This document shows, in pieces, positions 35,713 through 50,416 of a DNA stretch of 64,000 nt (the stretch's first letter is position 1; the number at the start of each line of letters is the position of its first letter). The notes beneath the pieces are model-generated. The model was not told where the DNA came from, ran no database searches, and saw nothing but the letters and a program-made list of their open reading frames with translations. This DNA is from Halohasta salina. Lineage in GTDB: Archaea > Halobacteriota > Halobacteria > Halobacteriales > Haloferacaceae. Position numbers and translations under genes: made by a program. Location of the stretch: NCBI RefSeq assembly GCF_024178165.1, contig NZ_JAMZIE010000004.1, positions 1 to 64,000 on the forward strand, read 5' to 3'.

Positions 35713-36324
35713 CTACAGCGCTTCGAGGTCCGCACGGGAGTTCACGTCGCGGAGGCTCCGCCAGTCGGTGTGGGCCGCGACCGTCGACGCCGGGATCACC
35801 ACGGTATCGATCTCGTCGAGCGCACCGTGGAGGCTCCGCCGGTCGGCCGCCAGCTGCCGGGTGGCGACTGCCTCCAGTCGGTTGGCCCGGTAGACCGCCT
35901 GCGTCGGCTGGAGATGGCCTCCTTCGAGTTCGGGAATGGCTGCGTCGTGGCCCGCCGCCCGCTCGAAGAGGAACGACACGAACGCGGGGTCGAGGAAGGG
36001 CATGTCGCAGGCGACGACCGCGGCGTAAGTCGTCTCGACGGCCCCGCAGCTGGCGGCGAGGCCGGCCAGCGGCCCGCCGTCCGGTTCGGGATCGTGGACG
36101 AACGCGACCGGCGTATCAGTGACGCCTGCGAGTGCCGTCTCGAAGGCCGGCTGCTGGTCGGTCCGGCAGCTGACGACGAGGCGGTCGACGACGCCCGCGA
36201 GGCGGTCGACGACGCGGGCGAGCATGGGACGGCCGTCGACGGTCGCCAGCGCCTTGTCGGCCCCCTCGAAGCGGGTCGAGTAGCCGCCGGCCAACACCAC
36301 GCCGCTCCGTGGGCGATCGGTCAT
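35713..36324 (-). CDS. mobA: Molybdenum cofactor guanylyltransferase
   Basis: A 203-aa nucleotidyltransferase. Directly after the chosen ATG comes SGVVLAGGYSTRFEGADKAL, the MobA GTP-binding loop (LAGGxSxRxGxDKA), and later VVACDMPFLDP near residue 100, which holds the metal Asp. MobA links GMP to Mo-molybdopterin to form the MGD cofactor needed by DMSO-reductase-family enzymes, and such an enzyme is encoded at 42813-45167. The frame is open upstream to 36675, but the conserved loop starts at residue 3 of the ATG 36324 frame, so that start is firm. Its neighbourhood supports its role in the molybdoenzyme module. Confidence 0.9.
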   Translation of the reverse strand: MTDRPRSGVVLAGGYSTRFEGADKALATVDGRPMLARVVDRLAGVVDRLVVSCRTDQQPAFETALAGVTDTPVAFVHDPEPDGGPLAGLAASCGAVETTYAAVVACDMPFLDPAFVSFLFERAAGHDAAIPELEGGHLQPTQAVYRANRLEAVATRQLAADRRSLHGALDEIDTVVIPASTVAAHTDWRSLRDVNSRADLEAL

Positions 36325-36426
36325 TGTGGCTCGCTCGGTGCCGCCGGGATTTGAGTTCGGCGGTCGGCGTTCCCGGCAACCAATAATTGTCACAACAGTT
36401 TTGCGTTCTGCCTTGGAAGTCCGTAT

Positions 36427-36759
36427 ATGACAGATACTGTCGAAGACACCGACGAACTCCCGTCGACGGCGGGCGAGTTGGCCGACGACTACCCCGAGAT
36501 CTGGGAGCAGTACAGCGGCCTCGGCGAGGCCTGTTCGGCGGCCGGCCCGATCGACGGCGAGACCAAGCGGCTGGTCAAACTCGCGTTGGCGGCGGGCTCG
36601 GAGTCCGAAGGTGCCGTCCATTCCCACGTCCGGCGGGCCCTCGATGAGGGCTTCGACCCCGATGCGCTGCGGCACGTGGCGCTGCTGTCGATCCCCACGC
36701 TGGGCTTCCCGAAGGCGATGGCGACCCTGACGTGGATCGACGATCTGGTCGACGAGTAG
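36427..36759 (+). CDS. Carboxymuconolactone decarboxylase-family protein lacking active-site cysteines
   Basis: A 110-aa protein of the CMD/AhpD fold (PF02627): ETKRLVKLALAAGSESEGAV (residue about 41-60), then SHVRRALDEG, and the C-terminal GFPKAMATLTW. Canonical AhpD-type members carry a redox CxxC next to a His in this helix. Here the corresponding stretch reads EGAVHSHVRRA, with no Cys, so peroxidase chemistry is not expected. It may be a structural or ligand-binding relative. It lies 62 nt before the HTH_10 regulator on the same strand, but that gene has its own TATA box at 36793-36799, so they can be transcribed separately. Confidence 0.8.
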   Translation: MTDTVEDTDELPSTAGELADDYPEIWEQYSGLGEACSAAGPIDGETKRLVKLALAAGSESEGAVHSHVRRALDEGFDPDALRHVALLSIPTLGFPKAMATLTWIDDLVDE

Positions 36760-36821: not shown

Positions 36822-37565
36822 ATGAGCCGTTCCGATGGATCGGATCCCCCGGCCGATCCTCAGCCAGCAGCCGTCGAGGACCGCGATCTCCGGGTCGTCC
36901 TCGAAATCGAGCGTGGCGGCCCCTGCTTCATGGACGACCTCGCGGGCGACGTGATCGACGTCGACGTCCGGGTCGTCGATGGCGTCTGTCACACCGAGGC
37001 GACGGTGTGTGAGTCCTGTGGCCCCGAGGAGACGACGATCGACGCCTGTCGGGCGGCCGACACTGCCCCCGAAGACGGTGACGACGCCGAGTCCGAAAAC
37101 GGCGAGGGCGACGACGCCGAGTCCGACCGCGTGATCACAAAATACCACACCGACGAGGTGTGCGACTACTGCCCGTCGTCGGTGTTTGCGGCCTACGGCT
37201 GTATCCCACACTTCCTGCGGGCCGACGGCCAGTCGTTTTTCATCAAGGCGTTTCTACCCAACTCCGCGAAGGTCTCGAACCTCGTCGCCGACCTCAACGA
37301 GGTCGGCTCGACCGTCCGGCTGGTGAGTATGACCCACACCGGCAGCGGTGAGGAACTCAGCGAGGAGATCTACGAGGTCGACGTCTCGGCGCTGACGCCC
37401 AAACAGCGGGCGGCCCTCGAGTTGGCGATCGAGGAAGGCTACTACGAGTCCGGCGAGAAGCCGTCGATGGCCTCGCTGGCCGACCAGCTCGGCATCTCGA
37501 CGTCGGCGTTCTCCCAGCGGCTCGCCCGCGCCGAGGGGAACGTGATGGGGCAGTTCTCCGAGTAG
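36822..37565 (+). CDS. Cys-rich HTH_10 (Bat/DmsR-like) transcription regulator
   Basis: A 247-aa regulator. The last 55 residues form the bacterio-opsin-activator HTH_10 domain (LTPKQRAALELAIEEGYYES, then SMASLADQLGISTSAFSQRL). The N-terminal half is a sensor-like region with clustered cysteines: TVCESCG near residue 65 and EVCDYCPSSVF plus YGCIP near residue 112-130. An acidic insert (residue about 87-105, rich in E, D, G and S) divides it. Cys-rich HTH_10 proteins such as DmsR of Halobacterium control DMSO/TMAO respiration genes, so control of the molybdoenzyme operon at 42.5-46.8 kb is a reasonable inference. The ATG at 36822 has a TATA box 23-29 nt upstream. It abuts the CoA-disulfide reductase gene tail to tail. 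Confidence 0.8.
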   Translation: MSRSDGSDPPADPQPAAVEDRDLRVVLEIERGGPCFMDDLAGDVIDVDVRVVDGVCHTEATVCESCGPEETTIDACRAADTAPEDGDDAESENGEGDDAESDRVITKYHTDEVCDYCPSSVFAAYGCIPHFLRADGQSFFIKAFLPNSAKVSNLVADLNEVGSTVRLVSMTHTGSGEELSEEIYEVDVSALTPKQRAALELAIEEGYYESGEKPSMASLADQLGISTSAFSQRLARAEGNVMGQFSE

Positions 37566-40213: not shown

Positions 40214-40705
40214 TCAGCGGAACCGGTCGTCGGCCGTCGTCGACTCGACGCCCGCGTCGGTCGCGTCGACCCAGCCGGCGGCCGTGTCGGCGGGCACGTC
40301 GAACTGCGGGACGAACGGCTTGATATCCAACAGCGGCGTCCCGTCGACCACGTCGATCCCGCTGACGGCGAGTTCCCGGCCGTCGACCGACTCAACGCCG
40401 ACGATCGAGAGACCGATCCCGTTGGGTCGGCGTGGCGCACGGGTCGCAAACAGTCCCCGCTCCGTCTCGTCGAGAAACGGTGTCGGCCGCAGGCTGTAGT
40501 CGTCGTCGCCGGCGTGGAAGTGGTACACCAGGATACAGTGCGAAAAGCCATCGAGATCCGCGAGCCCCGCCTCGTAGGCCGGGTCGACGACGACCGTCCC
40601 GCGGGCGCTTGCCTCGCCGGCCGGCTGGATCGGCATCCCCTCGGGGGTCTCGAACGGCGTTCGGATCTCCCCGATCGGCTCGTAGCAGTACCGGTCGCCG
40701 GTCAT
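40214..40705 (-). CDS. trmO: tRNA m6t6A37 methyltransferase TrmO
   Basis: A 163-aa beta-barrel SAM methyltransferase of the TsaA/TrmO (UPF0066) family, with the N-terminal PIGEIRTPFETPEGMPIQPA and the family core ETERGLFATRAPRRPNGIGL near residue 80-100. Closely following motifs are DIVDGTPLLDIKP-like residues (VVDGTPLLDIKPF, near residue 122). It N6-methylates t6A at position 37 of tRNA. The ATG overlaps the stop of the upstream Mrp gene by 4 nt (ATGA type), so both are co-translated with the 130-aa gene further upstream. The association with Mrp looks like operon packing and not a shared pathway. Confidence 0.92.
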   Translation of the reverse strand: MTGDRYCYEPIGEIRTPFETPEGMPIQPAGEASARGTVVVDPAYEAGLADLDGFSHCILVYHFHAGDDDYSLRPTPFLDETERGLFATRAPRRPNGIGLSIVGVESVDGRELAVSGIDVVDGTPLLDIKPFVPQFDVPADTAAGWVDATDAGVESTTADDRFR

Positions 40706-41805
40706 TCGTCGGCGCCCTCGGTTTCCTCGGCTGGCTCTGCCGCCGCAGCGTGTGACTGCCGACGACGCTGGCCGACGTGATCCATCACGTCGGCGGCGAG
40801 ATCGGCGAACAGTTCGCCGACCGTCGAGTCCTCGAGGACGATCGGTTCGCCGACCTCGCCGGCCTCGCCGATGGCGGGATCCAGCGGGATCCGGCTCAAC
40901 ACGGGGAGGTCGAACTCCTCGGCCAGTTGGCTGCCGCCGCCGGCCCGGAACACCTCGTGGTGGTCCCCGCAGTTCGGACAGACGAACGCGCTCATGTTCT
41001 CGACGATGCCGAACACCTCGGCTTCGTGGTCGTCGAACAGCCGGACCCCCTTGCGGGCGTTGTCGAGGGCGACGTCCTGCGGCGTCGTCACGACGACCGA
41101 CCCCATGACTGGCATCTGCTGGAGCATCGTTAGCTGGGCGTCGCCGGTGCCCGGCGGCAGGTCGACCACGAGGTAGTCCAGCGGCCCCCAGTCGACGTCG
41201 TGCCAGAGTTCCGTGAGCGTCTGGTCGACCATCGAGCCGCGCCAGACGACCGGCAACTCCTCGTCGACGAGGAAGCCGACGCTCATCAGCTTCAGGCCGT
41301 GAGCCTCAACCGGCACGATCTCCTGACGCTGGTTGGCCCGCACCGGCTCACCTTGGACGCCGAGCATCCGTGGAATGTTCGGGCCGTAGACGTCGGTGTC
41401 GAACAGCCCCACCCGCGCGCCGCGGTCGGCGATCCCCGCCGCGATGTTGACCGCGATCGTACTCTTGCCGACGCCGCCCTTCCCGGAGGAGACAGCGATG
41501 ACGATCGGCGCGTCGTCGTCGGCCGCCGGGGTGTCGTCGTCGATGGCGATCGACAGCGAGGGCTCGTAGCCCGCCGCCTCGACGGCCTCCCGGACCGCCG
41601 CCGCCAACTCGGTCTCGGCCGGCGAGTACGGCGCGCCGAACGCCAGCGGCACGTGGGCCGTCCCGTCGTCGACGGTGATCTCGCCGACCAGCCCGGCCGA
41701 GACGATGTCTTCGGTCGCCGCTTCCGCCTCACTCGACGCGTCGTCCTCGCTCGACGGCGCGGGAACCGTGATCTCCCGGAGCGCCTCCTCGATCGCGTGG
41801 GTCAC
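40702..41805 (-). CDS. Mrp/ApbC (NBP35-type) iron-sulfur carrier ATPase
   Basis: A 367-aa P-loop ATPase that binds and transfers [4Fe-4S] clusters. The N-terminal 80 residues form a MIP18/DUF59-like domain, followed by the deviant Walker A IAVSSGKGGVGKSTIAVNIA near residue 105-125. LPPGTGDAQLT near residue 215 and the cluster-binding CPNC (FVCPNCGDHHEVF, near residue 270) complete the Mrp signature. It overlaps TrmO and the 130-aa gene by 4 nt each, forming a three-gene minus-strand operon driven from the mirror promoter at 42243-42257. The oxidoreductase operon on the other side needs up to five Fe-S clusters per complex, so co-control would be useful. Confidence 0.93.
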   Translation of the reverse strand: MTHAIEEALREITVPAPSSEDDASSEAEAATEDIVSAGLVGEITVDDGTAHVPLAFGAPYSPAETELAAAVREAVEAAGYEPSLSIAIDDDTPAADDDAPIVIAVSSGKGGVGKSTIAVNIAAGIADRGARVGLFDTDVYGPNIPRMLGVQGEPVRANQRQEIVPVEAHGLKLMSVGFLVDEELPVVWRGSMVDQTLTELWHDVDWGPLDYLVVDLPPGTGDAQLTMLQQMPVMGSVVVTTPQDVALDNARKGVRLFDDHEAEVFGIVENMSAFVCPNCGDHHEVFRAGGGSQLAEEFDLPVLSRIPLDPAIGEAGEVGEPIVLEDSTVGELFADLAADVMDHVGQRRRQSHAAAAEPAEETEGADE

Positions 41806-42194
41806 AGCGATTCCTCCGTCGTGGCGGGGAGGCGATCACAGTCGGCGATGGTCGCCGGCAGCTCGCGGTCGGAGACATCAAGCCGGATACTGTCGCGTTC
41901 CCACAGCGTTCCGTTGAGCCCGGTGACGACCTGTTTGAGGCTGTCTTTGGCCTTCGCGTGGCACTCGCTGTTGACGAACGTGGCCCACGCTTCCAACGAC
42001 TGGAAGCCGAAGAGGAACTTCACCTCCGGGGACATCCCCTTGTCGTTCTCCCAGACGTCGAACGTCGACACCGCCTCGTGGGTCACCCACTCCATGCTGT
42101 TTTCGGCCAGCCACTGGTCGTACTGCCCCCGACAGGTGCCGATCACGTCGAACTCGATCTCGTAACTGTAGGGCGTCGAGTGCCTCGTTGTCAT
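41802..42194 (-). CDS. Conserved-looking hypothetical protein, 130 aa
   Basis: A 130-aa soluble protein starting MTTRHSTPYSYEIEFDVIGT, with a compact alpha/beta pattern (SYEIEFDVIG, VKFLFGFQSLEAWATFVNSE) reminiscent of dimeric alpha/beta-barrel folds, but I do not recognise the family. It overlaps the Mrp start by 4 nt, so it is the first gene of the operon ending with trmO. The ATG at 42194 is used because only a TTG lies further upstream (42236), and because it places the TATA centre 57 nt away, exactly as for the divergent oxidoreductase operon. Its function is unknown; the shared promoter hints at involvement with the Fe-S or molybdoenzyme module. Confidence 0.7.
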   Translation of the reverse strand: MTTRHSTPYSYEIEFDVIGTCRGQYDQWLAENSMEWVTHEAVSTFDVWENDKGMSPEVKFLFGFQSLEAWATFVNSECHAKAKDSLKQVVTGLNGTLWERDSIRLDVSDRELPATIADCDRLPATTEESL

Positions 42195-42242
42195 ATGTAT
42201 TCCCAAGCGCCCGCACACCATTGCCCTACTGCTCAACTGGAT

Positions 42243-42257
42243 AAGGTTTTAAATACG
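42243..42257 (-). promoter_or_regulatory. Mirror promoter (left arm) for the 130-aa/mrp/trmO operon
   Basis: On the minus strand cgtatttaaaacctta supplies a strong TATA (tatttaaa, centre about 42251), 57 nt from the ATG at 42194. It and the following bases match the right-arm promoter at 42498-42522 in 21 of 25 positions. Confidence 0.75.
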
Positions 42258-42390
42258 ACGCGCCGACGGGCGCGCGGTGATCCCGGCACGGATCCGGGTA
42301 CGCCCCGGCTTGCGAACGGCTGGGTGGAAACCCGGTCGACCCCGCCGGTCGAAGCGCCTCCCGACCAGCGCGTCGGAGCCCTCCGACCGG

Positions 42391-42459
42391 GGTGTCGGCG
42401 ATCGTTCGACCGGGGTGTCGGCGATCGTTCGACCGGGGTGTCGGCGATCGTTCGACCGG
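42391..42459. repeat. Three perfect tandem copies of a 23-bp unit
   Basis: The unit begins ggtgtcggcgatcgttcgac and ends cgg. It is repeated without a spacer at 42391-42413, 42414-42436 and 42437-42459, and each copy is identical. A partial fourth copy may start at 42460. It lies inside the 241-bp gap between the two mirror promoters. The half-palindrome cgatcg sits in each unit. With no spacers it is not a CRISPR array; an operator array or a replication-slippage product are the two readings. Confidence 0.85.
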
Positions 42460-42497
42460 GACGATCGGGAGGAGTCGACCCCGTCGGGTCGAGGTGA

Positions 42498-42511
42498 GTA
42501 TATAAAACCTT
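42498..42511 (+). promoter_or_regulatory. Mirror promoter (right arm) for the molybdoenzyme operon
   Basis: The sequence gtatataaaacctt carries a strong TATA (tatataaa, centre about 42503), 57 nt before the ATG at 42560, implying a leader of about 30 nt. It is the inverted near-copy of the promoter at 42243-42257. Confidence 0.8.
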
Positions 42512-42559
42512 CACCGGTTGAGAGTGAGTGATACGGGGGTATGGATCGCTTGTACAGAT

Positions 42560-42820
42560 ATGAGCAACCCAACCGACCCATCGGCATCGCTGGGAGCGGA
42601 CGACGCGGGGATGAACCCGCTGGATCTCGTCGACGACCTCGACGATGCCCCCGACGACAGCGAGTACGACCAGGAGCTCGGTCGGCGCATGGGGATCGAC
42701 GCCATGCGCGTCGCCAACGGCGAGCTGGACGAACAGGCGTTCCACGAGAAATACGAGGAAGAGCTCATCGCCGAGTTCGGTGACGACTACAGCCCGGCGG
42801 CGGTGATGCGCGATGAGTAG
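42560..42820 (+). CDS. Small acidic protein preceding the molybdoenzyme catalytic subunit, 86 aa
   Basis: An 86-aa acidic protein: MSNPTDPSASLGADDAGM, then an acidic helix MRVANGELDEQAFHEKYEEE (residue about 55-74) and a short C-terminus (YSPAAVMRDE). No cysteine is present, so despite its place it cannot itself hold an Fe-S cluster. It overlaps the catalytic-subunit gene by 8 nt, so it is translated together with it. Short proteins at this position occur in haloarchaeal dms-like operons and some are annotated as ferredoxin N-terminal domain proteins, which I treat with caution. A small assembly or regulatory factor is likely. The start follows the TATA box by 57 nt. Confidence 0.7.
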   Translation: MSNPTDPSASLGADDAGMNPLDLVDDLDDAPDDSEYDQELGRRMGIDAMRVANGELDEQAFHEKYEEELIAEFGDDYSPAAVMRDE

Positions 42821-45167
42821 CGAATCACGAAGCGGACTGACGCGGCGCTCGCTGCTGAAGGCGAGCGCAGGCGCGGCCGCCATGGCGTCGCTCGGCGGGT
42901 GTGCGGACACCGCCGAACAGCTCGGCGTCGGCACCACCGACCGGACCGCGACCCCGGTCGCCGACGCCAACACCGCCTACGGTAACTGCTGGATGTGCTG
43001 TCACAACTGCGCCCAGGAGGTGAAGGTGACCGACGACGGCACCGTCGTCGGCATCACGGGCGTCGACGGCAACCCACGTGGGAGCGCTGGCGCTGGCACC
43101 GAGGGGACGCTGTGTCCCAAGGGCCTGGGCCAACTCGACAAGACCCACGACCCCGAACGGATCAAACAGCCATACATCCGCAAGGACGGCGAACTCCAGG
43201 AAGCGACCTGGGAGGAGGCCTTCGAGTACACCGCCGAGCGACTCGAAGAGTTCGACGAGGAACACGGGGCCGAAACGTTCCTGGACGCCGGAAGCTGGGC
43301 CGAGACCCCCATCTTCCGGACGATCTGGCGGGACCTCTACGGCACCCCCGAGCGGATCGGCCGCGGGATCCACGTCTGTGCCGGCCCGACGTTCGTCAAC
43401 GGCGGGATGATGGGCGTCGGCTCGAACGCCCGGGTGCCGGACTACCAGAACTCGGAGTACCTCATTATGTGGGGCCGCAACCCCCTGGAGGCCTTCGCCG
43501 GTCAGTTCGAGGCCAAGGGGATCCTGAAAGCCATCGAGGAAAACGACGCGACGCTGGTCACCATCGACCCGCAGTACACCGAGACCGCCGAGAAGTCCGA
43601 CGCGTGGCTGCCGATCAAGCCACGGACCGACGGCGCCCTCGCCTTGGCGATGGCGAACGTCATCATCGAGGAGAACCGCTACGACGCCGACTTCGTGGAG
43701 AATCACACCTACGGTTTCGAAGCCTACCGGGAGGCCGTCGCGGACAAGACGCCCGAGTGGGCCGCCGAGATCACCGAGATCGAGGCCGACAAGATCCGCG
43801 CGATCGCCCGTGGCTTCGCCGAGGCCGCCCCGGCGGCGGGTATCTCGGTGTGGTCGGGGACCGCCCAGTCGGGCAACGGCTGGAAGGCGACCCAGAACAT
43901 CATCGCGCTCAACGGGCTGGTCGGCAACATCGACCGCCCCGGCGGGCTGCGGCTCTGGAAGTCGACGCCGATGGCCGACCCCTTCGAGGTCTGCGAGTGG
44001 ACCCCCGAAGGCAAGGGCAGCGGCGAGGCCCGCGGCACCGCGACGACGATTGGCGTCGATCTGCCGAACAACGCCGCGGGCAAGACGCCCGCCTTCAAGA
44101 AGTACGACGAGTACAGCGACAATCCCGCCCGCCACATCACGGGGATCGCCCACAACCTCGTCCCCGAGATGGTCGACAACGGCCACATCAACGGGATGTA
44201 CTGCCACCACGACATGCCGTTGAAGGACGGCAACGCCGAGGCGTGGCTGGAGGCCCTCGACGAGATGGATCTGGTGATCGCCGTCGACGCCTACTGGAAC
44301 GGCGTCACCCGCAACGCCGACGTGGTGTTCGCGGACGCCACCCAGCTCGAAAAGGACACCATCGGTACCGGCTCGTGGAGCTCCTACAGCGACAAGCAGT
44401 GGGTCGTCGGCGGGAAGGCCGCCGTCGAACCGCAGTTCAACACGAAGCCGGACTTCGAGATCCTGACCGGCCTCGCCGATGCCATGGGCTGGGGCGAGTA
44501 CTTCCCGTGGGAGGACCACGAGGAGTTCATCGACGACCAGCTGCAGGCACTCGACCTCACCCTCGAAGAGCTCTCGACGGGCGACCAGAACTACGAGCTC
44601 GTCGGCGAGTACGGCTACGAACAGTGGCGCGACAGCGAGGGCCCGGCGTTCCGGTTCGATCTCGACCAGATCGGGGCGTTCACCAAGGCCGCCGAAGAGG
44701 CCGGGATGGACACCGTCCCCGAGTGGCAGCCGCCGGGCACCTACGGCGACGAACTCAGCGAGGAGTACCCACTGGAGTTCTACGACATCCGGTCGGTGTA
44801 CTTCTCACACGGCAGCGATCAGGGGATCGACCGGCTGCTCGAGCAGTTCGCTCGGAAGAACGATCTCCACGAGAAGGACTACCGCGGCAACTACCTCCAT
44901 ATCAACCCGGTCGACGCCGAGGCGCGGGGCATCGAAACGGGCGATATGGTGACCATCGAGTCGGAAACCGGCGGGGGCGAGCTGATGGCCCACGTCACCG
45001 AGCTGATCAAACCCGGCGTCGTCACCAGCGAGTACGGCTTCGGCGAGGGCTCGACCCAAGCGGACTACGAGGGGCTGAACACCATGAAACTCCACGAAAC
45101 CCAGATGGACCCGATCACGGGACAGGTCGACAGACACATCGCGGTTGCGGTCAACGGAGGCGATTAA
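42813..45167 (+). CDS. Molybdopterin oxidoreductase catalytic subunit, Psr/Phs-like, Tat lipoprotein
   Basis: A 784-aa DMSO-reductase-superfamily enzyme. The signal SGLTRRSLLKASAG (RR at 11-12) ends in a lipobox with Cys30, so it is exported folded by Tat and anchored outside. The [4Fe-4S] motif is Cys59, Cys62, Cys66 (CWMCCHNC) and Cys101 (CPKG). The candidate Mo ligand lies in RGIHVCAGPTFVNGG as Cys189, the Cys-type ligand of polysulfide/thiosulfate reductases and arsenate-type enzymes, not the Ser of DmsA/DorA. MGD binding follows. Substrate candidates are polysulfide, thiosulfate or tetrathionate, but sequence does not settle it. It overlaps the small 86-aa gene by 8 nt and is followed 1 nt later by the Fe-S subunit. 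Confidence 0.9.
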   Translation: MSSESRSGLTRRSLLKASAGAAAMASLGGCADTAEQLGVGTTDRTATPVADANTAYGNCWMCCHNCAQEVKVTDDGTVVGITGVDGNPRGSAGAGTEGTLCPKGLGQLDKTHDPERIKQPYIRKDGELQEATWEEAFEYTAERLEEFDEEHGAETFLDAGSWAETPIFRTIWRDLYGTPERIGRGIHVCAGPTFVNGGMMGVGSNARVPDYQNSEYLIMWGRNPLEAFAGQFEAKGILKAIEENDATLVTIDPQYTETAEKSDAWLPIKPRTDGALALAMANVIIEENRYDADFVENHTYGFEAYREAVADKTPEWAAEITEIEADKIRAIARGFAEAAPAAGISVWSGTAQSGNGWKATQNIIALNGLVGNIDRPGGLRLWKSTPMADPFEVCEWTPEGKGSGEARGTATTIGVDLPNNAAGKTPAFKKYDEYSDNPARHITGIAHNLVPEMVDNGHINGMYCHHDMPLKDGNAEAWLEALDEMDLVIAVDAYWNGVTRNADVVFADATQLEKDTIGTGSWSSYSDKQWVVGGKAAVEPQFNTKPDFEILTGLADAMGWGEYFPWEDHEEFIDDQLQALDLTLEELSTGDQNYELVGEYGYEQWRDSEGPAFRFDLDQIGAFTKAAEEAGMDTVPEWQPPGTYGDELSEEYPLEFYDIRSVYFSHGSDQGIDRLLEQFARKNDLHEKDYRGNYLHINPVDAEARGIETGDMVTIESETGGGELMAHVTELIKPGVVTSEYGFGEGSTQADYEGLNTMKLHETQMDPITGQVDRHIAVAVNGGD

Positions 45168-45168
45168 A

Positions 45169-45771
45169 ATGGGTGAACAGTGGGGATTCTACTTCGACTC
45201 GGACAAGTGTATCGGCTGCCACGCCTGCTCGGTGTCGTGTAAACAGCGACACGGCCGCGACCCCGAACAGGACGAGTGGCGAACTGTCAAGAACGTCACG
45301 ACCGGCGAGTTCCCCGACGTGAGCTCGCTGCCGATCTCGATGTCGTGTATGCACTGCTCGGATGCGCCCTGCGAGAAGGTCTGTCCGTGCAACTCGATCC
45401 AGAAACGCGAGGAAGACGGCATCGTGGTCGTCGATCGGGACAGCTGTATCGGCTGTCACTACTGTGGGTGGGCCTGCCCGTACGGCGCACCGACCTACGA
45501 CGACGGCGGCATCATGTCGAAATGTAACCTCTGTCTCGGCGAAGGGCCGGGCGGTGGCTACGAGATGCCGCCGCGAGAGGAACAGGAGGGCGGCGGCTCA
45601 CAGCCCGCCTGTGTCGACAACTGTGTCGGCGGCGCGATCGAAGCGGGGCCGATCAGCGAGCTGAAGGACAAGGCCACCACGGAGGCCGTCGAGCAGTTCG
45701 AACAGGAGCCGGCCAACGTGATCGTCGAGGCGAACAGAGAAGACACCAACGCGTTCCCATACGAGGCGTGA
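45169..45771 (+). CDS. Four-cluster ferredoxin subunit (DmsB/PsrB-like)
   Basis: A 200-aa electron-transfer subunit. Four Cys groups are visible: CIGCHACSVSC near residue 13-23, CMHCSDAPCEKVC near residue 63-75, CIGCHYCGWAC near residue 95-106, and CNLC with a distal CVDNC near residue 119-152. They are expected to hold four [4Fe-4S] clusters and pass electrons from the membrane subunit to the catalytic subunit. It lacks a signal peptide, so it is carried across the membrane with the Tat-exported partner. It starts 1 nt after the catalytic subunit ends. The length fits PsrB/PhsB/DmsB (about 190-205 aa). Confidence 0.93.
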   Translation: MGEQWGFYFDSDKCIGCHACSVSCKQRHGRDPEQDEWRTVKNVTTGEFPDVSSLPISMSCMHCSDAPCEKVCPCNSIQKREEDGIVVVDRDSCIGCHYCGWACPYGAPTYDDGGIMSKCNLCLGEGPGGGYEMPPREEQEGGGSQPACVDNCVGGAIEAGPISELKDKATTEAVEQFEQEPANVIVEANREDTNAFPYEA

Positions 45772-45777
45772 TCAACG

Positions 45778-46815
45778 ATGACATCATTCGGACTCTGGTG
45801 GGGTGGCGCTGGCCACTGGGACGTCTTCGTGGCCATCTACCTCTTCCTCGGGGGCATCTCCGGGGGTGCGTTCCTCGTCGCAGCGATCGCCGAGTGGTTC
45901 GGTGAGCGCAGCGGCCACGAGGGCTACGAGTTCATCACCCGCTGGGGGTGGACGCTCTCGTTCGGCACCATCGTCGTCGGTTCGTGGACGCTGCTGGCAC
46001 ACCTCTCGGGGCCGTTCCTCCGGGCGTTCATGTTCCCAGTGAAGTTCACCAACTGGACGTCCTGGATGGCGATCGGCACCTGGGTGGTCGTCACCTTCAG
46101 CCTCGTCGTCATGGCGCGGATGATCTGGGCGACCTTCGGAGCCGAGGCCACCGACGACCCCAGCGGCCTGCCGCGGCACGTCGTCAATAAGCTGGGCAAC
46201 AACCTCTTCGTCGACTGGGGGATCGACCTCGTCGACTGGGGGGCGGATCGCACCCGCCCGACCGGGGTGCTCAAGCGGCTGGTGCAGGTCGGCGGCGCCG
46301 CGCTGGCGGTCATGCTGGTGATCTACACCGCCCTGCTGTTGAGCGCGGTCGGCTGGATGGTGCCACTGTGGAACGGGACCCTGCTGCCGCCGCTGTTCGT
46401 CGCCAGTGGCTTCTCGGCCGGGATCGCCATGGTGATCGCGGTCACCGCTTGGCAGAACGACCTCGATAGCCACCTCGTCCACCGGTTCGGCCTGCTCGAC
46501 GACGCCGTGATCCTCGGCGAAGCGGTCGTGCTGGCGGCGCTGCTGTACACGCTGACGACGGGCGGCTACGGGGCCGCCCGGACCCTCGATGGGCTCACCA
46601 GCGGGGGCGGCCTGCTGCTGTTGGTCGGGATGATCAGCGCGGGGCTGTTGCTCCCGCTTGCCATCTCGGCAGCCCAGAGCCTCGTCGGCAGCGGGAGCGT
46701 GCTGGCGAGCCGACGCGTGACGACCGCGAAGTTCGGGCTGGTTATCGCCGGCTCGTTCCTCCTGCGGTTCCTGCTGATCTTCACGGCGGTCCAGCAGCCC
46801 ATCATCGTGACGTAA
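45778..46815 (+). CDS. NrfD/PsrC-type quinol-oxidising membrane subunit
   Basis: A 345-aa integral membrane protein with about nine hydrophobic segments. It opens GHWDVFVAIYLFLGGISGGA, typical of NrfD/PsrC (PF03916), where the GGxxGG-type helix lies near the quinone site. It should oxidise (mena)quinol and anchor the catalytic and Fe-S subunits at the outer face of the membrane. It lies 6 nt after the Fe-S subunit gene. Use of an NrfD-type anchor together with a Cys-ligated catalytic subunit favours a Psr/Phs-type over a DmsC-type complex. The chaperone gene follows 74 nt later. Confidence 0.9.
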   Translation: MTSFGLWWGGAGHWDVFVAIYLFLGGISGGAFLVAAIAEWFGERSGHEGYEFITRWGWTLSFGTIVVGSWTLLAHLSGPFLRAFMFPVKFTNWTSWMAIGTWVVVTFSLVVMARMIWATFGAEATDDPSGLPRHVVNKLGNNLFVDWGIDLVDWGADRTRPTGVLKRLVQVGGAALAVMLVIYTALLLSAVGWMVPLWNGTLLPPLFVASGFSAGIAMVIAVTAWQNDLDSHLVHRFGLLDDAVILGEAVVLAALLYTLTTGGYGAARTLDGLTSGGGLLLLVGMISAGLLLPLAISAAQSLVGSGSVLASRRVTTAKFGLVIAGSFLLRFLLIFTAVQQPIIVT

Positions 46816-46889: not shown

Positions 46890-47450
46890 ATGAACGACAC
46901 CTACGCCGACTGCTACGCGCTGCTCGCATCGTGTTTCCAACACCCCGACGACGCCTTCGTCGAGGCCGTCGACGACGGCACGCTCGCGGCGACCATCGAC
47001 GAGTACGCCGAGACCCTCGGCGTCGAGGGCATTGAGCCGCCGCCGGGGTTCGACGAGCCGCCGCGGGAGGCGTATCTCCGGACGTTCGAGGCCTTCGACG
47101 GCGAGTACGCCCCGCCGGCGGAGTCGGCCTACGAGGCCTGGTGGGACGGCGAGAAACGGGGGATCCTCTCGGGGCCGCCGGCCAGTGACATGCAGCAGCG
47201 CTACGAGGCACTCGACGCCGAGGTGCCGGCGGCTTACCCGGCCGACCACATCTCGCTGCTGTTGGAGTACGCCAGCCTGCTCCTGGAGGCGGGCAACCGT
47301 GAGGAGTACGCCGCGTTCCACGTGGCCCACTTCGAGTGGCTCCCGGCGTTCCGCGAGCGCGTCGAGTCGACGGCCGACTCGCCGTTCTACCACTGGGCGG
47401 TCCAGACGCTCGACCGGATGACGAGCGCCATCGGCGACGACCTAGCGTAA
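46890..47450 (+). CDS. TorD/DmsD-type redox enzyme maturation chaperone
   Basis: A 186-aa all-helical protein of the TorD family (nitrate reductase delta/DmsD group). The N-terminus MNDTYADCYALLASCFQHPD and the central EAYLRTFEAFDGEY and SLLLEYASLLLEAGNREEY are typical. These chaperones hold the Tat signal of the catalytic molybdoenzyme until the cofactor is inserted. It is encoded after the three complex subunits, as expected for its partner at 42813-45167. It may be in the same transcript (74-nt gap). Its length matches the family. Confidence 0.88.
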   Translation: MNDTYADCYALLASCFQHPDDAFVEAVDDGTLAATIDEYAETLGVEGIEPPPGFDEPPREAYLRTFEAFDGEYAPPAESAYEAWWDGEKRGILSGPPASDMQQRYEALDAEVPAAYPADHISLLLEYASLLLEAGNREEYAAFHVAHFEWLPAFRERVESTADSPFYHWAVQTLDRMTSAIGDDLA

Positions 47451-47583
47451 TCGCCTCGCCGGATCGTGAACACCGGTGTCCACTTCGACTGTCGGCGCCG
47501 TCGGCCACCACGGCTCACGTAATCGGAAGGCATTACATCGGAATCGGAACTCAATCAACACAACAGGACCTATGGGACGACAT

Positions 47584-48531
47584 ATGGTTACGAGACGGAC
47601 GACGAAGACGGGATCCCGCCGGGCACTGCTGACCGCGATCGGCGCGTCGGCGCTGGGGGCCGTCGCGGGCTGTCTCGGTGGAAGTGGCAACGAGGACTCG
47701 GTCGAGGTGCTGTCGGCCGGAAGTCTCGCCCGAACCTTCGAGGATCACCTCGGGCCGGCGTTCGAGGCCGACACTGGCATCAGCATCCACGGCGAATACT
47801 ACGGTACGAACGCAGTGATGCGGATGGTCACCGACCGAACGAAACACCCGGATGTAATCGTCAGCGCCGACGCGACGCTGCTCCGGGACCGACTGTATCC
47901 GGAGTTCACCGACTGGGACGTCGAGTTCGCCGCCAACAGCCTCGGGATCGGCTACAACGCCGACACCGAGTTCGGCCAGAGGCTCGACGCCGGCGAGCCG
48001 TGGTACGAACTCGCCCGCGGAACCGACGACGGCGACCTCGCTATCAGCGACCCGGAACTCGACCCGCTGGGCTACCGGGCCATCCAGGCGTTCAAACTCG
48101 CAGCGGGCGAACACGGCCTCGATGGGTTCCGCGAGGCGATGGCCGACCGGGTCTACGAGGAGCCCGAGGAGCCACAACTACTGGCGGGTGTCGAGACCGG
48201 CTCCCGTGTGGGGTCGGTCGTCTACCGCAACATGGCCGTCGACCACGACCTCCCGTTTTTCGAGTTCCCTGCCGCGTACAACTTCGCCGCCCCCGAGCGG
48301 GCCGAGGCGTACGCCGAGGCGACCTACACCTTCGAGGACGGCGAAACCATCGAGGGCCGACCCATTCTCTACAACCTCACCGTCAACCCCGAAGCCGACA
48401 ACCTCGAGGGGGGCCAGCGGCTCGGCCAGTACATCGTCGACCACCCCGAGATCCTCGAGGCGGCCGGATTGACCGTCGGCGAGGCGTTCCCGCGGGCAAA
48501 CGGCGAGGTTCCGGAGGCGATCGCGTTGTGA
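47584..48531 (+). CDS. wtpA: Molybdate/tungstate ABC transporter substrate-binding lipoprotein (WtpA/ModA-like)
   Basis: A 315-aa periplasm-side binding protein. The signal TGSRRALLTAIGASALGAVA ends in a lipobox (AVAGCLG), with a twin-arginine-like pair. The mature part begins VEVLSAGSLARTFEDHLGP, the archaeal ModA/WtpA opening in which Ser and Ala-Gly contact the oxyanion. Later segments HPDVIVSADATLL and ANSLGIGYNAD match the family. It captures molybdate or tungstate for the permease that overlaps its stop by 4 nt. An in-frame ATG at 47572 is an alternative start. Its position directly after the molybdoenzyme and chaperone genes makes it the metal supply of the module. Confidence 0.9.
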   Translation: MVTRRTTKTGSRRALLTAIGASALGAVAGCLGGSGNEDSVEVLSAGSLARTFEDHLGPAFEADTGISIHGEYYGTNAVMRMVTDRTKHPDVIVSADATLLRDRLYPEFTDWDVEFAANSLGIGYNADTEFGQRLDAGEPWYELARGTDDGDLAISDPELDPLGYRAIQAFKLAAGEHGLDGFREAMADRVYEEPEEPQLLAGVETGSRVGSVVYRNMAVDHDLPFFEFPAAYNFAAPERAEAYAEATYTFEDGETIEGRPILYNLTVNPEADNLEGGQRLGQYIVDHPEILEAAGLTVGEAFPRANGEVPEAIAL

Positions 48532-49346
48532 GCCTCGCTCGCCGGGCGTGGGCCGGGGGGGCCGCCCGCCGACCGGAGCTACTGGTCCCCGCGGCGCTCG
48601 GCGGGCTGCTCCTCCTGTATTTCGCGCTGCCGTTCGCCGCGTTTCTCGCCCGCGTCGGGTCGACGCCGATCCTCGCCCAGCTGTCGGCGCCGGGCGCCCA
48701 GCAGGCGATCCGCCACTCGCTTCTCACCGCGCCGGTGTCGACGGCGATCGCGACGATCTTCGGGGTCCCGCTGGCCTACGTGTTGGCCCGGCAGTCGTTC
48801 CCTGGCAAACGGCTCGTCGAGGGGCTCGTCGTCCTCCCGTTGGTCGTCCCGCCGGTCGTCGGCGGGGCGATGATCCTCACTGCTGTCGGGCGGTTCACGC
48901 CGCTCGGGTCGGCCGCAGCGAGCGTCGGGATCCCCCTGACCGGCAGCCTGATCGGCGTCGTCCTCGCCCAGACGTTCGTCGCCGCACCGTTCGTGATCAT
49001 CACCGCCCGCGCCGGCTTCGGGGCGATCGACGAACGGCTCGAACAGGCCTCCCGCTCGCTGGGGTATGGACCGCTGTCGACGTTCCGAAACGTCTCGTTG
49101 CCGCTGGCCCGCGGCTCGATCGCTGCCGGGATGGTGCTCACCTTCGCGCGGGCGATGGGAGAGTTCGGCGCGACGATGATGGTCGCCTACAACCCCCGGA
49201 CGATCCCCACCCAGATCTGGGTCGACTTCATCGGCGGCGGGATCGACGCTATCCTCCCGCTGGCGCTGGCGCTGTTCGGGCTGACGCTGCTTGTCGTCGC
49301 CGCCATCCAGCGACTCGGCCGGCTGCCGACGGTGGTCGAGCGATGA
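48528..49346 (+). CDS. wtpB: Molybdate/tungstate ABC transporter permease (WtpB/ModB-like)
   Basis: A 272-aa membrane permease with about six transmembrane segments. The binding-protein-dependent transport (EAA) motif is recognisable at EQASRSLGYGPLSTFRNVSL near residue 173, followed by ARAMGEFGATMMVAYN. It starts with GTG inside the last codons of the binding-protein gene (GTGA overlap) and its stop overlaps the ATPase start (ATGATG). The three genes are therefore one operon. The start could be missed by ATG-based calling, since the frame is open far upstream. It forms the channel through which the oxyanion is imported. Confidence 0.92.
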   Translation: MSLARRAWAGGAARRPELLVPAALGGLLLLYFALPFAAFLARVGSTPILAQLSAPGAQQAIRHSLLTAPVSTAIATIFGVPLAYVLARQSFPGKRLVEGLVVLPLVVPPVVGGAMILTAVGRFTPLGSAAASVGIPLTGSLIGVVLAQTFVAAPFVIITARAGFGAIDERLEQASRSLGYGPLSTFRNVSLPLARGSIAAGMVLTFARAMGEFGATMMVAYNPRTIPTQIWVDFIGGGIDAILPLALALFGLTLLVVAAIQRLGRLPTVVER

Positions 49347-50416
49347 TGCTCAACGTCGACGGCCTCGGCCACCGCTATGGGACCGAACGGGCGCTCGACG
49401 ACGTCTCCTTCGGCCTCGACACCGGCGAACTGGTCGCGGTGCTCGGCCCCAGCGGCTGCGGGAAGACGACGCTCGTCCAGGCGATCGCCGGCCACCTCAC
49501 CCCGACCGCCGGCCGGGTCCGGCTCCGTGGCCACGACGTCACCGGCCAGCCACCCGAACGGCGGGCGGTCGGCCTCGTCTTTCAGCAGTCGACGCTCTAC
49601 CCGCATATGACCGTCGGCGAGAACGTCGCCTACGGGCTCGGCCCACAGGGAGTCGACCCGGACGAGCACGAGGCGATCGTCGACGAGTACCTCGATCTGG
49701 TCAACCTCGCCGATCGGCGGACGGCCTACCCGAACGAACTCAGCGGCGGCCAACAGCGCCGGGCGGAACTCGCACGGGCGCTGGCACCCCAGCCCGACCT
49801 GCTCGTCCTCGACGAACCGCTGTCGGCGCTCGACCGGGCCCTCCGGGTCCAGCTCCGGGGAGAGATCGCCCGGATCCAGCGCGAAACCGGGGTGACGACG
49901 CTGTTCGTCACGCACGACCAACAGGAGGCCATGGAGCTGGCCGACCGGCTGGTGGTCATGCACGGCGGCGCGGTCGCGGCGGTCGGCCCGCCCCGTCGGC
50001 TCTACGAGTCGCCACCGACGCCGTTCGTGGCGTCGTTTCTCGGCCGGTCGACCGAGCTTCCGGCGACGATCGCCGCCACCGAGCCGCTCCGGCTCGCTGT
50101 CGGTGGCGACGAACTCACGCTGCCCGACGCCGGGCGGACGCCGCCGGTCGGGGCGTCGGTCCGCTGTCTGTTCCGCCCCCACGGGCTGTCGATCCGGCCG
50201 CCGGAGGACGCGGACGCCGAGCTGTCGGGGACCGTCCGCCGGGTGGCCGACCTCGGCCGGCGTTACGACGTGACCGTCGAAACGGACGACGGCACGGCGC
50301 TGGTCGTCGAGCGCCGGAGGGAGCCGCCGGCGGTCGGCGAGGCCGTCGCGGTGGCCGTCGACGCCGGGTCGGTCGTGGCGTTTACTGCCGCTGGCGAGCC
50401 GATCGACGCGGCGTGA
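49343..50416 (+). CDS. wtpC: Molybdate/tungstate ABC transporter ATPase (WtpC/ModC-like)
   Basis: A 357-aa ABC ATPase. Walker A is LGPSGCGKTTLVQAIAG near residue 35, the Q-loop VFQQSTLYPHMT, the signature NELSGGQQRRAELARALAPQ near residue 135 and Walker B LLVLDEPLSALD. The D-loop and H-loop (FVTHDQQEAME) follow. From about residue 240 a C-terminal TOBE-type domain (ATELPATI and CLFRPHGLSIRP) may sense the oxyanion. It overlaps the permease gene at its start. Its last 35 nt overlap the end of the convergent P450 gene. Confidence 0.92.
   Translation: MMLNVDGLGHRYGTERALDDVSFGLDTGELVAVLGPSGCGKTTLVQAIAGHLTPTAGRVRLRGHDVTGQPPERRAVGLVFQQSTLYPHMTVGENVAYGLGPQGVDPDEHEAIVDEYLDLVNLADRRTAYPNELSGGQQRRAELARALAPQPDLLVLDEPLSALDRALRVQLRGEIARIQRETGVTTLFVTHDQQEAMELADRLVVMHGGAVAAVGPPRRLYESPPTPFVASFLGRSTELPATIAATEPLRLAVGGDELTLPDAGRTPPVGASVRCLFRPHGLSIRPPEDADAELSGTVRRVADLGRRYDVTVETDDGTALVVERRREPPAVGEAVAVAVDAGSVVAFTAAGEPIDAA

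Follow-up and report, generated by a model that had tools for sequence, protein, structure and literature searches.

Does a single regulator serve two divergent operons whose promoters resemble mirror images of each other? The question is raised by a locus of Halohasta salina, for which we analyzed positions 1 to 64,000 of the forward strand of contig NZ_JAMZIE010000004.1 (GCF_024178165.1); this whole 64,000-nt stretch is referred to as the window. On the plus strand, the right operon starts with a gene for a small Ferredoxin_N (PF16947) protein (42560..42820) and continues with a molybdopterin oxidoreductase (42813..45167), a 4Fe-4S dicluster subunit (45145..45771), an NrfD/PsrC-type membrane anchor (45778..46815) and a TorD-like chaperone (Nitrate_red_del, 46890..47450). 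This set of a Tat-signal molybdoenzyme, FeS subunit, NrfD/PsrC anchor and TorD-like chaperone fits the Psr/Phs-type make-up, with a TAT_signal match of 19.6 bits that lies under the Pfam cut-off of 22.7. The molybdoenzyme is nearest to PhsA and not to DMSO_red_II, PhsA being its top NCBIfam match at 285 bits, far under the equivalog cut-off of 694. As judged from these matches, the right operon appears to be a respiratory operon of the polysulfide/thiosulfate-reductase type, with a predicted substrate.

The left operon, on the minus strand, has the gene of a 130-aa protein (41802..42194) in first position, followed by mrp, encoding an Mrp/NBP35-type Fe-S carrier ATPase (40702..41805), and then by the gene of a TrmO-domain protein (40214..40705). 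The 130-aa protein has no match among Pfam and NCBIfam profiles, and its AlphaFold model (pLDDT 80) is similar to dimeric alpha-beta-barrel/ABM proteins; we therefore call it ABM-like. Homologues of its family often have mrp as the next gene or a molybdoenzyme operon nearby. The left operon is predicted to provide an Fe-S carrier and accessory (helper) functions for the reductase. The cluster is flanked by a MobA-like gene (35713-36675) and by the genes of an ABC transporter and its solute-binding protein (47476-50416), whose substrate may be molybdate; these neighbours fit a molybdoenzyme island.

The left arm (42256-42232, minus strand, GTATTTAAAACCTTATCCAGTTGAG) and the right arm (42498-42522, plus strand, GTATATAAAACCTTCACCGGTTGAG) are identical at 21 of 25 positions, with 241 nt separating them. 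No 25-nt inverted match in the intergenic region (365 nt) is better, 300 dinucleotide shuffles of that region peaked at 19, and the runner-up match to either arm within the window is 16/25. The core common to both arms, AAAACCTTNNCCNGTTGAG, occurs exactly at these two places only in the 3.04-Mb genome, and all remaining matches carry 3 mismatches (the genome-wide scans were pattern searches). The mirror-image arms described in an earlier, sequence-only reading of this DNA were thus confirmed. In each arm, a TATA box is followed, after a spacer of 3 nt, by a 13-bp element. For the psr-type molybdoenzyme operon, these are the TATA box TATATAAA (42499..42506, plus) and the element TTCACCGGTTGAG (42510..42522, plus), and for the ABM-mrp-trmO operon the TATA box TATTTAAA (42248..42255, minus) and the element TTATCCAGTTGAG (42232..42244, minus); we propose the two elements as copies of an operator for an HTH_10 regulator. 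The distance from AAAACCTT to the ATG is 56 nt on either side (ATG at 42194 on the minus strand and at 42560 on the plus strand). The same reading had claimed an equal spacing of 57 nt, which holds to within one base, and the presence of two real promoters, one per direction, is likewise supported. Past the 25 nt, the leaders are identical at only 19 of 41 positions, chiefly near the ATG. A PWM scan of the 64-kb window found just the two arms and no further sites, including in the promoter of the candidate HTH_10 regulator gene.

To see how widely the element is used, we gathered the sequences that lie upstream of Ferredoxin_N operons in numerous haloarchaeal genomes. With 37 haloarchaeal promoters as input, de novo EM yielded a TATA box followed by 3 nt and CTTAACTATTCAG (full motif TATATAAAACCCTTAACTATTCAG), the fixed TATA spacing being partly built into the motif model. 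The log-likelihood was 373, compared with 73-86 for shuffled sets, and 36 of the 37 promoters fit the model. The same architecture precedes most Ferredoxin_N-molybdoenzyme operons of both psr/phs and dms type; DMSO-reductase-type operons within the set carry the element, which is therefore not confined to psr. The promoters of L085/L103, L084/L102 and L096 showed a poor fit or none, and a promoter on a Halobiforma plasmid scored weakly. With leave-group-out matrices, 92% of sites scored above the 95th percentile of a control set of 1186 further sites, which are TATA-like sequences and not mapped promoters; the arms of the window scored 7.2 and 6.0 in this analysis, against 0.2. The strict consensus TWTAAANNNCTKMAYWRTWCAG has nine exact matches in 293 genomes, all of which precede Ferredoxin_N operons by their coordinates, and a reversed control pattern has none. 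Sites outside the training set turned up in places where they were expected: at L161 (+4236), with an HTH_10 gene on one side and a molybdoenzyme gene on the other, ahead of a Ferredoxin_N gene (L146 -4364) and at L176 (+2564 and -685), and such sites are present on a Halorubrum plasmid. A partial match on contig C19 (TATAAGTCCTTGCGCGGTTGTG, with similar ones in G001 and G002) was discarded: it lacks GTTGAG, has no gene of the system beside it and adjoins a MarR/TrmB-like gene.

The wording of the element differs between lineages. Promoters of the same cluster are more alike than promoters from different clades (mean 11.2 vs 7.3 of 16 positions, p = 9e-5), the L150 pair (7/16) being the exception among five within-cluster pairs. 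At L142/L143, AATTGATCCCG is common to the promoter of the reductase and that of a gene for a rhodanese-type lipoprotein; the L143 pair is not mirrored, both promoters lying on the plus strand. CTGTA-N3-TACAG, or a near version of it, occurs at L154/L155 and on the Halorubrum plasmid both in the dms promoter and in the one that leads to mrp. On C18, the genome of the window carries a second cluster with another HTH_10 gene and another variant of the element. Overall, the same layout recurs over haloarchaea with lineage-specific site wording. Extra copies of the element were seen ahead of rhodanese-type lipoprotein genes (L057:3877 and L143:8446), and sulfurtransferases may on this account be members of the regulon.

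Haloarchaea have many HTH_10 proteins, and the window encodes one at 36822..37565 on the plus strand. Its C-terminal HTH_10 domain scored 53.3 bits, over the Pfam cut-off of 23.1, and its match to DmsR_N, at 24.8 bits, stayed under the cut-off of 27. Since DmsR_N is below the cut-off and there is no neighbouring DMSO reductase operon, we did not assign the protein to DmsR proper and refer to it as DmsR-like. A search of the PDB found no sequence relative of it. The gene lies about 5 kb from the arms, and the genome encodes other HTH_10 proteins. Among 36 Ferredoxin_N loci, 31 have an HTH_10 gene that is encoded on the same strand and lies no more than 1 kb upstream. Differences between elements correlate with differences between HTH domains (34 loci: r = 0.74, and partial r = 0.58 once Ferredoxin_N distance is controlled for), and 19 representatives gave r = 0.66 and partial r = 0.60 (p = 0.0002), in a test that cannot fully strip out the common ancestry of clusters. 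Covariation, adjacency and shared variants within each cluster are what is expected of local regulator-operator pairs, which makes the 36822 protein the best candidate, as the earlier reading had proposed. One element is found in both promoters, is kept in relatives and covaries with the HTH_10 domain, and the idea of one regulator for both operons is therefore supported. Directly upstream of a broken HTH_10 homologue (L120, G003:C56), we also noticed TTTATATAT and, after it, the perfect palindrome GTAACTCAGAGTTAC, possibly an autoregulatory site.

From these patterns we infer the identity of the factor and its physical binding to DNA. The protein encoded at 36822-37565 would bind the 13-bp, roughly dyadic element located 3 nt downstream of the TATA box in both divergent promoters, and binding at both arms would co-control the psr/phs-type molybdoenzyme operon and the ABM-mrp-trmO operon. 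We put the probability that the arms are two copies of the site of the local HTH_10/DmsR-like protein, co-controlling the two operons probably by activation, at about 0.74. In the aligned promoters, an A is found at +34 from the TATA start in 85% of 34 cases. Using this offset, transcription of the right operon is predicted to start at 42533 (plus strand) and that of the left operon at 42221 (minus strand), which would place the element at about -23 to -11. No CGAAA-type BRE (consensus from PMC4983044) is conserved upstream of the TATA box in the aligned promoters. The element is partly dyadic: 3.2 of 6 pairs match, where base composition predicts 1.5. This is no clear excess over re-dealt half-sites (p = 0.05), and symmetry is poor in the arms of the window; a symmetric dimer site is no more than suggested.

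The direction of control is the point at which the strongest alternative arises. The same HTH_10 protein could act at the same element as a repressor, blocking TFB or RNA polymerase until an inducer, such as a sulfur compound or low oxygen, frees the DNA. The stretch from -23 to -11 overlaps the region that the polymerase has to occupy. In archaea, repressors frequently bind between the TATA box and the start, and in that case the sign of control would be reversed. Moreover, NarO, a protein of bacterioopsin-activator type, is reported as an activator of nar and as a nitrate-dependent repressor of dms (PMC10062603, PMC11218638). On the other hand, almost all promoters keep the TATA spacing exactly, to the base, and a steric repressor would tolerate shifts. 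In addition, DmsR was identified genetically as an activator of dms in Halobacterium (PMC1447603), and dms-type operons bear the same element. For these two reasons we lean towards activation, and consider a repressor rather unlikely, if well ahead of the other alternatives.

A further possibility is that a recent inverted duplication placed one promoter on the other side, so that the likeness of the arms reflects descent and not joint regulation. This can be addressed in a same-genus MAG (G003, contigs LKML01000060/62/93), which contains homologues of both operons at three loci, each of them with both arms kept; the MAG has 6% contamination, and its three loci may stem from mixed strains. At L057 the arms are close, about 0.14 kb apart and divergent as in the window, and at L056/L160 and L058 other genes intervene, leaving the arms about 2.5 and 4.8 kb apart. 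The distance of 56 nt from AAA to ATG is kept in all eight promoters of the clade (window and G003). The sequence-only reading had held that the symmetry would be accidental if related genomes had one arm or different TATA distances; both arms and the 56-nt spacing are retained at the three G003 loci. Since the arms are retained whatever their separation, they are, on comparison of these loci, two independently maintained sites.

Equal 56-nt leaders and some leader likeness by the ATG (the 19/41 positions above) would agree with a recent duplication. However, the likeness is confined mostly to 25 nt, and the two sides remain alike at 12-13 of 16 positions in three diverged G003 loci, even when kilobases apart. 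Unrelated clades pair their promoters likewise with other variants, and at L142/L143 in the same orientation. The element is regulator-specific and also common to non-mirrored promoters of other clusters (L143), so the likeness of the arms can be explained without a duplication. We regard a recent duplication as improbable; an old duplication followed by selection, and with it the inverted-duplication origin suggested in the earlier reading, may have occurred.

The surroundings of the arms vary within the genus. In the three left promoters of G003, the ATG at 56 nt starts an ORF of 32-33 codons (MSQSC.., MKQSC.., MNQHY..; L056:5897-5995, L057:1671-1769, L058:5888-5989), the stop of which overlaps the start of the gene for the 130-aa protein (ATGA), so that the left gene proper begins about 95 nt further down. 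The window has no such leader ORF, and the ATG of the 130-aa gene itself (42194) sits at the 56-nt position. The HTH_10 orthologues of the 36822 regulator in G003 are 70-76% identical to it. The 130-aa gene is missing from two further genomes of the genus, as is a close homologue of the regulator (28-30% at best), and a Ferredoxin_N search in one of them (G001) found none. Between the arms of the window lies a tandem repeat of 3.3 perfect copies of 23 bp (42384-42460, plus strand). Its unit occurs once elsewhere in the genome, with 2 mismatches, and was not seen in the spacer of the divergent relative locus L057; we therefore rejected it as a part of the device.

The arms might also reflect a general feature of haloarchaeal core promoters, a TATA box with a downstream WW element, and no specific operator. 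The TATA boxes are ordinary, and haloarchaea have been proposed to use a -10 WW element (PMC4983044). However, the 13-bp element is absent from the 1186 other TATA-like sites (not mapped promoters), and it is sequence-specific, lineage-specific and restricted to these gene clusters, which makes this explanation very improbable. Least probable of all is that the arms pair with each other, as a cruciform or RNA loop enclosing the 241 bp, or by DNA looping. Their 84% complementarity is what two similar promoters pointing in opposite directions will show, and the arms are retained with other spacers and at separations of 2.5-4.8 kb, so that pairing is not required and an intramolecular stem-loop, whose pairing distance is not kept in L056/L160 and L058, was rejected. 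Thus, of the earlier reading, the promoters, their spacing and the single regulator are supported, and the loop is not.

That HTH_10 regulators lie beside anaerobic-respiration operons is already known from DmsR, NarO and Psr clusters. In dmsREABCD of Halobacterium, an HTH_10 gene adjoins a molybdoenzyme operon, as here, and dms-type members of our set carry the element. In contrast, the window enzyme is psr/phs-like, the proposed regulator is a weak DmsR_N match encoded at a distance of about 5 kb, and the site is present at two divergent operons. We found no description of a DmsR operator in the openly licensed papers searched. Bat is another regulator of the HTH_10 family with a short site common to several co-regulated promoters (PMC1447603); the bop UAS, compared by description only, is described 5′ to bop, whereas the window element lies directly downstream of the TATA box. 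NarO of Haloferax volcanii is also a regulator of anaerobic respiration, and the denitrification promoters of Haloferax mediterranei, for which no NarO homologue is reported (PMC10062603), have in common the short, semi-palindromic motif CGAAYATDKTYG, a different motif at variable distances. Natronoarchaeal clusters combine psrABCD with sulfurtransferases and bacterioopsin-activator genes (PMC6176080, in part), and the portion of that paper compared here describes no operator or divergent accessory operon. The openly licensed papers searched yielded no description of the operator, its position, the pairing of reductase and Mrp operons or the lineage variants, an absence that is weak evidence.

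Taken together, the element provides a concrete, testable candidate operator for the DmsR branch, with a position, a consensus and lineage-specific variants. It would tie an operon for an Fe-S carrier (Mrp) by regulation to respiratory molybdoenzymes. To our knowledge, the position directly downstream of the TATA box is not one that archaeal activators are expected to use, and the element raises the mechanistic question of archaeal activation from there. Tentatively, DmsR-type HTH_10 proteins that serve anaerobic respiration might activate from just downstream of the TATA box at an invariant 3 nt, each cluster having its own matching regulator-operator pair. If this is true, the cluster-specific pairs would constitute a ready-made specificity code that can be read from genomes.
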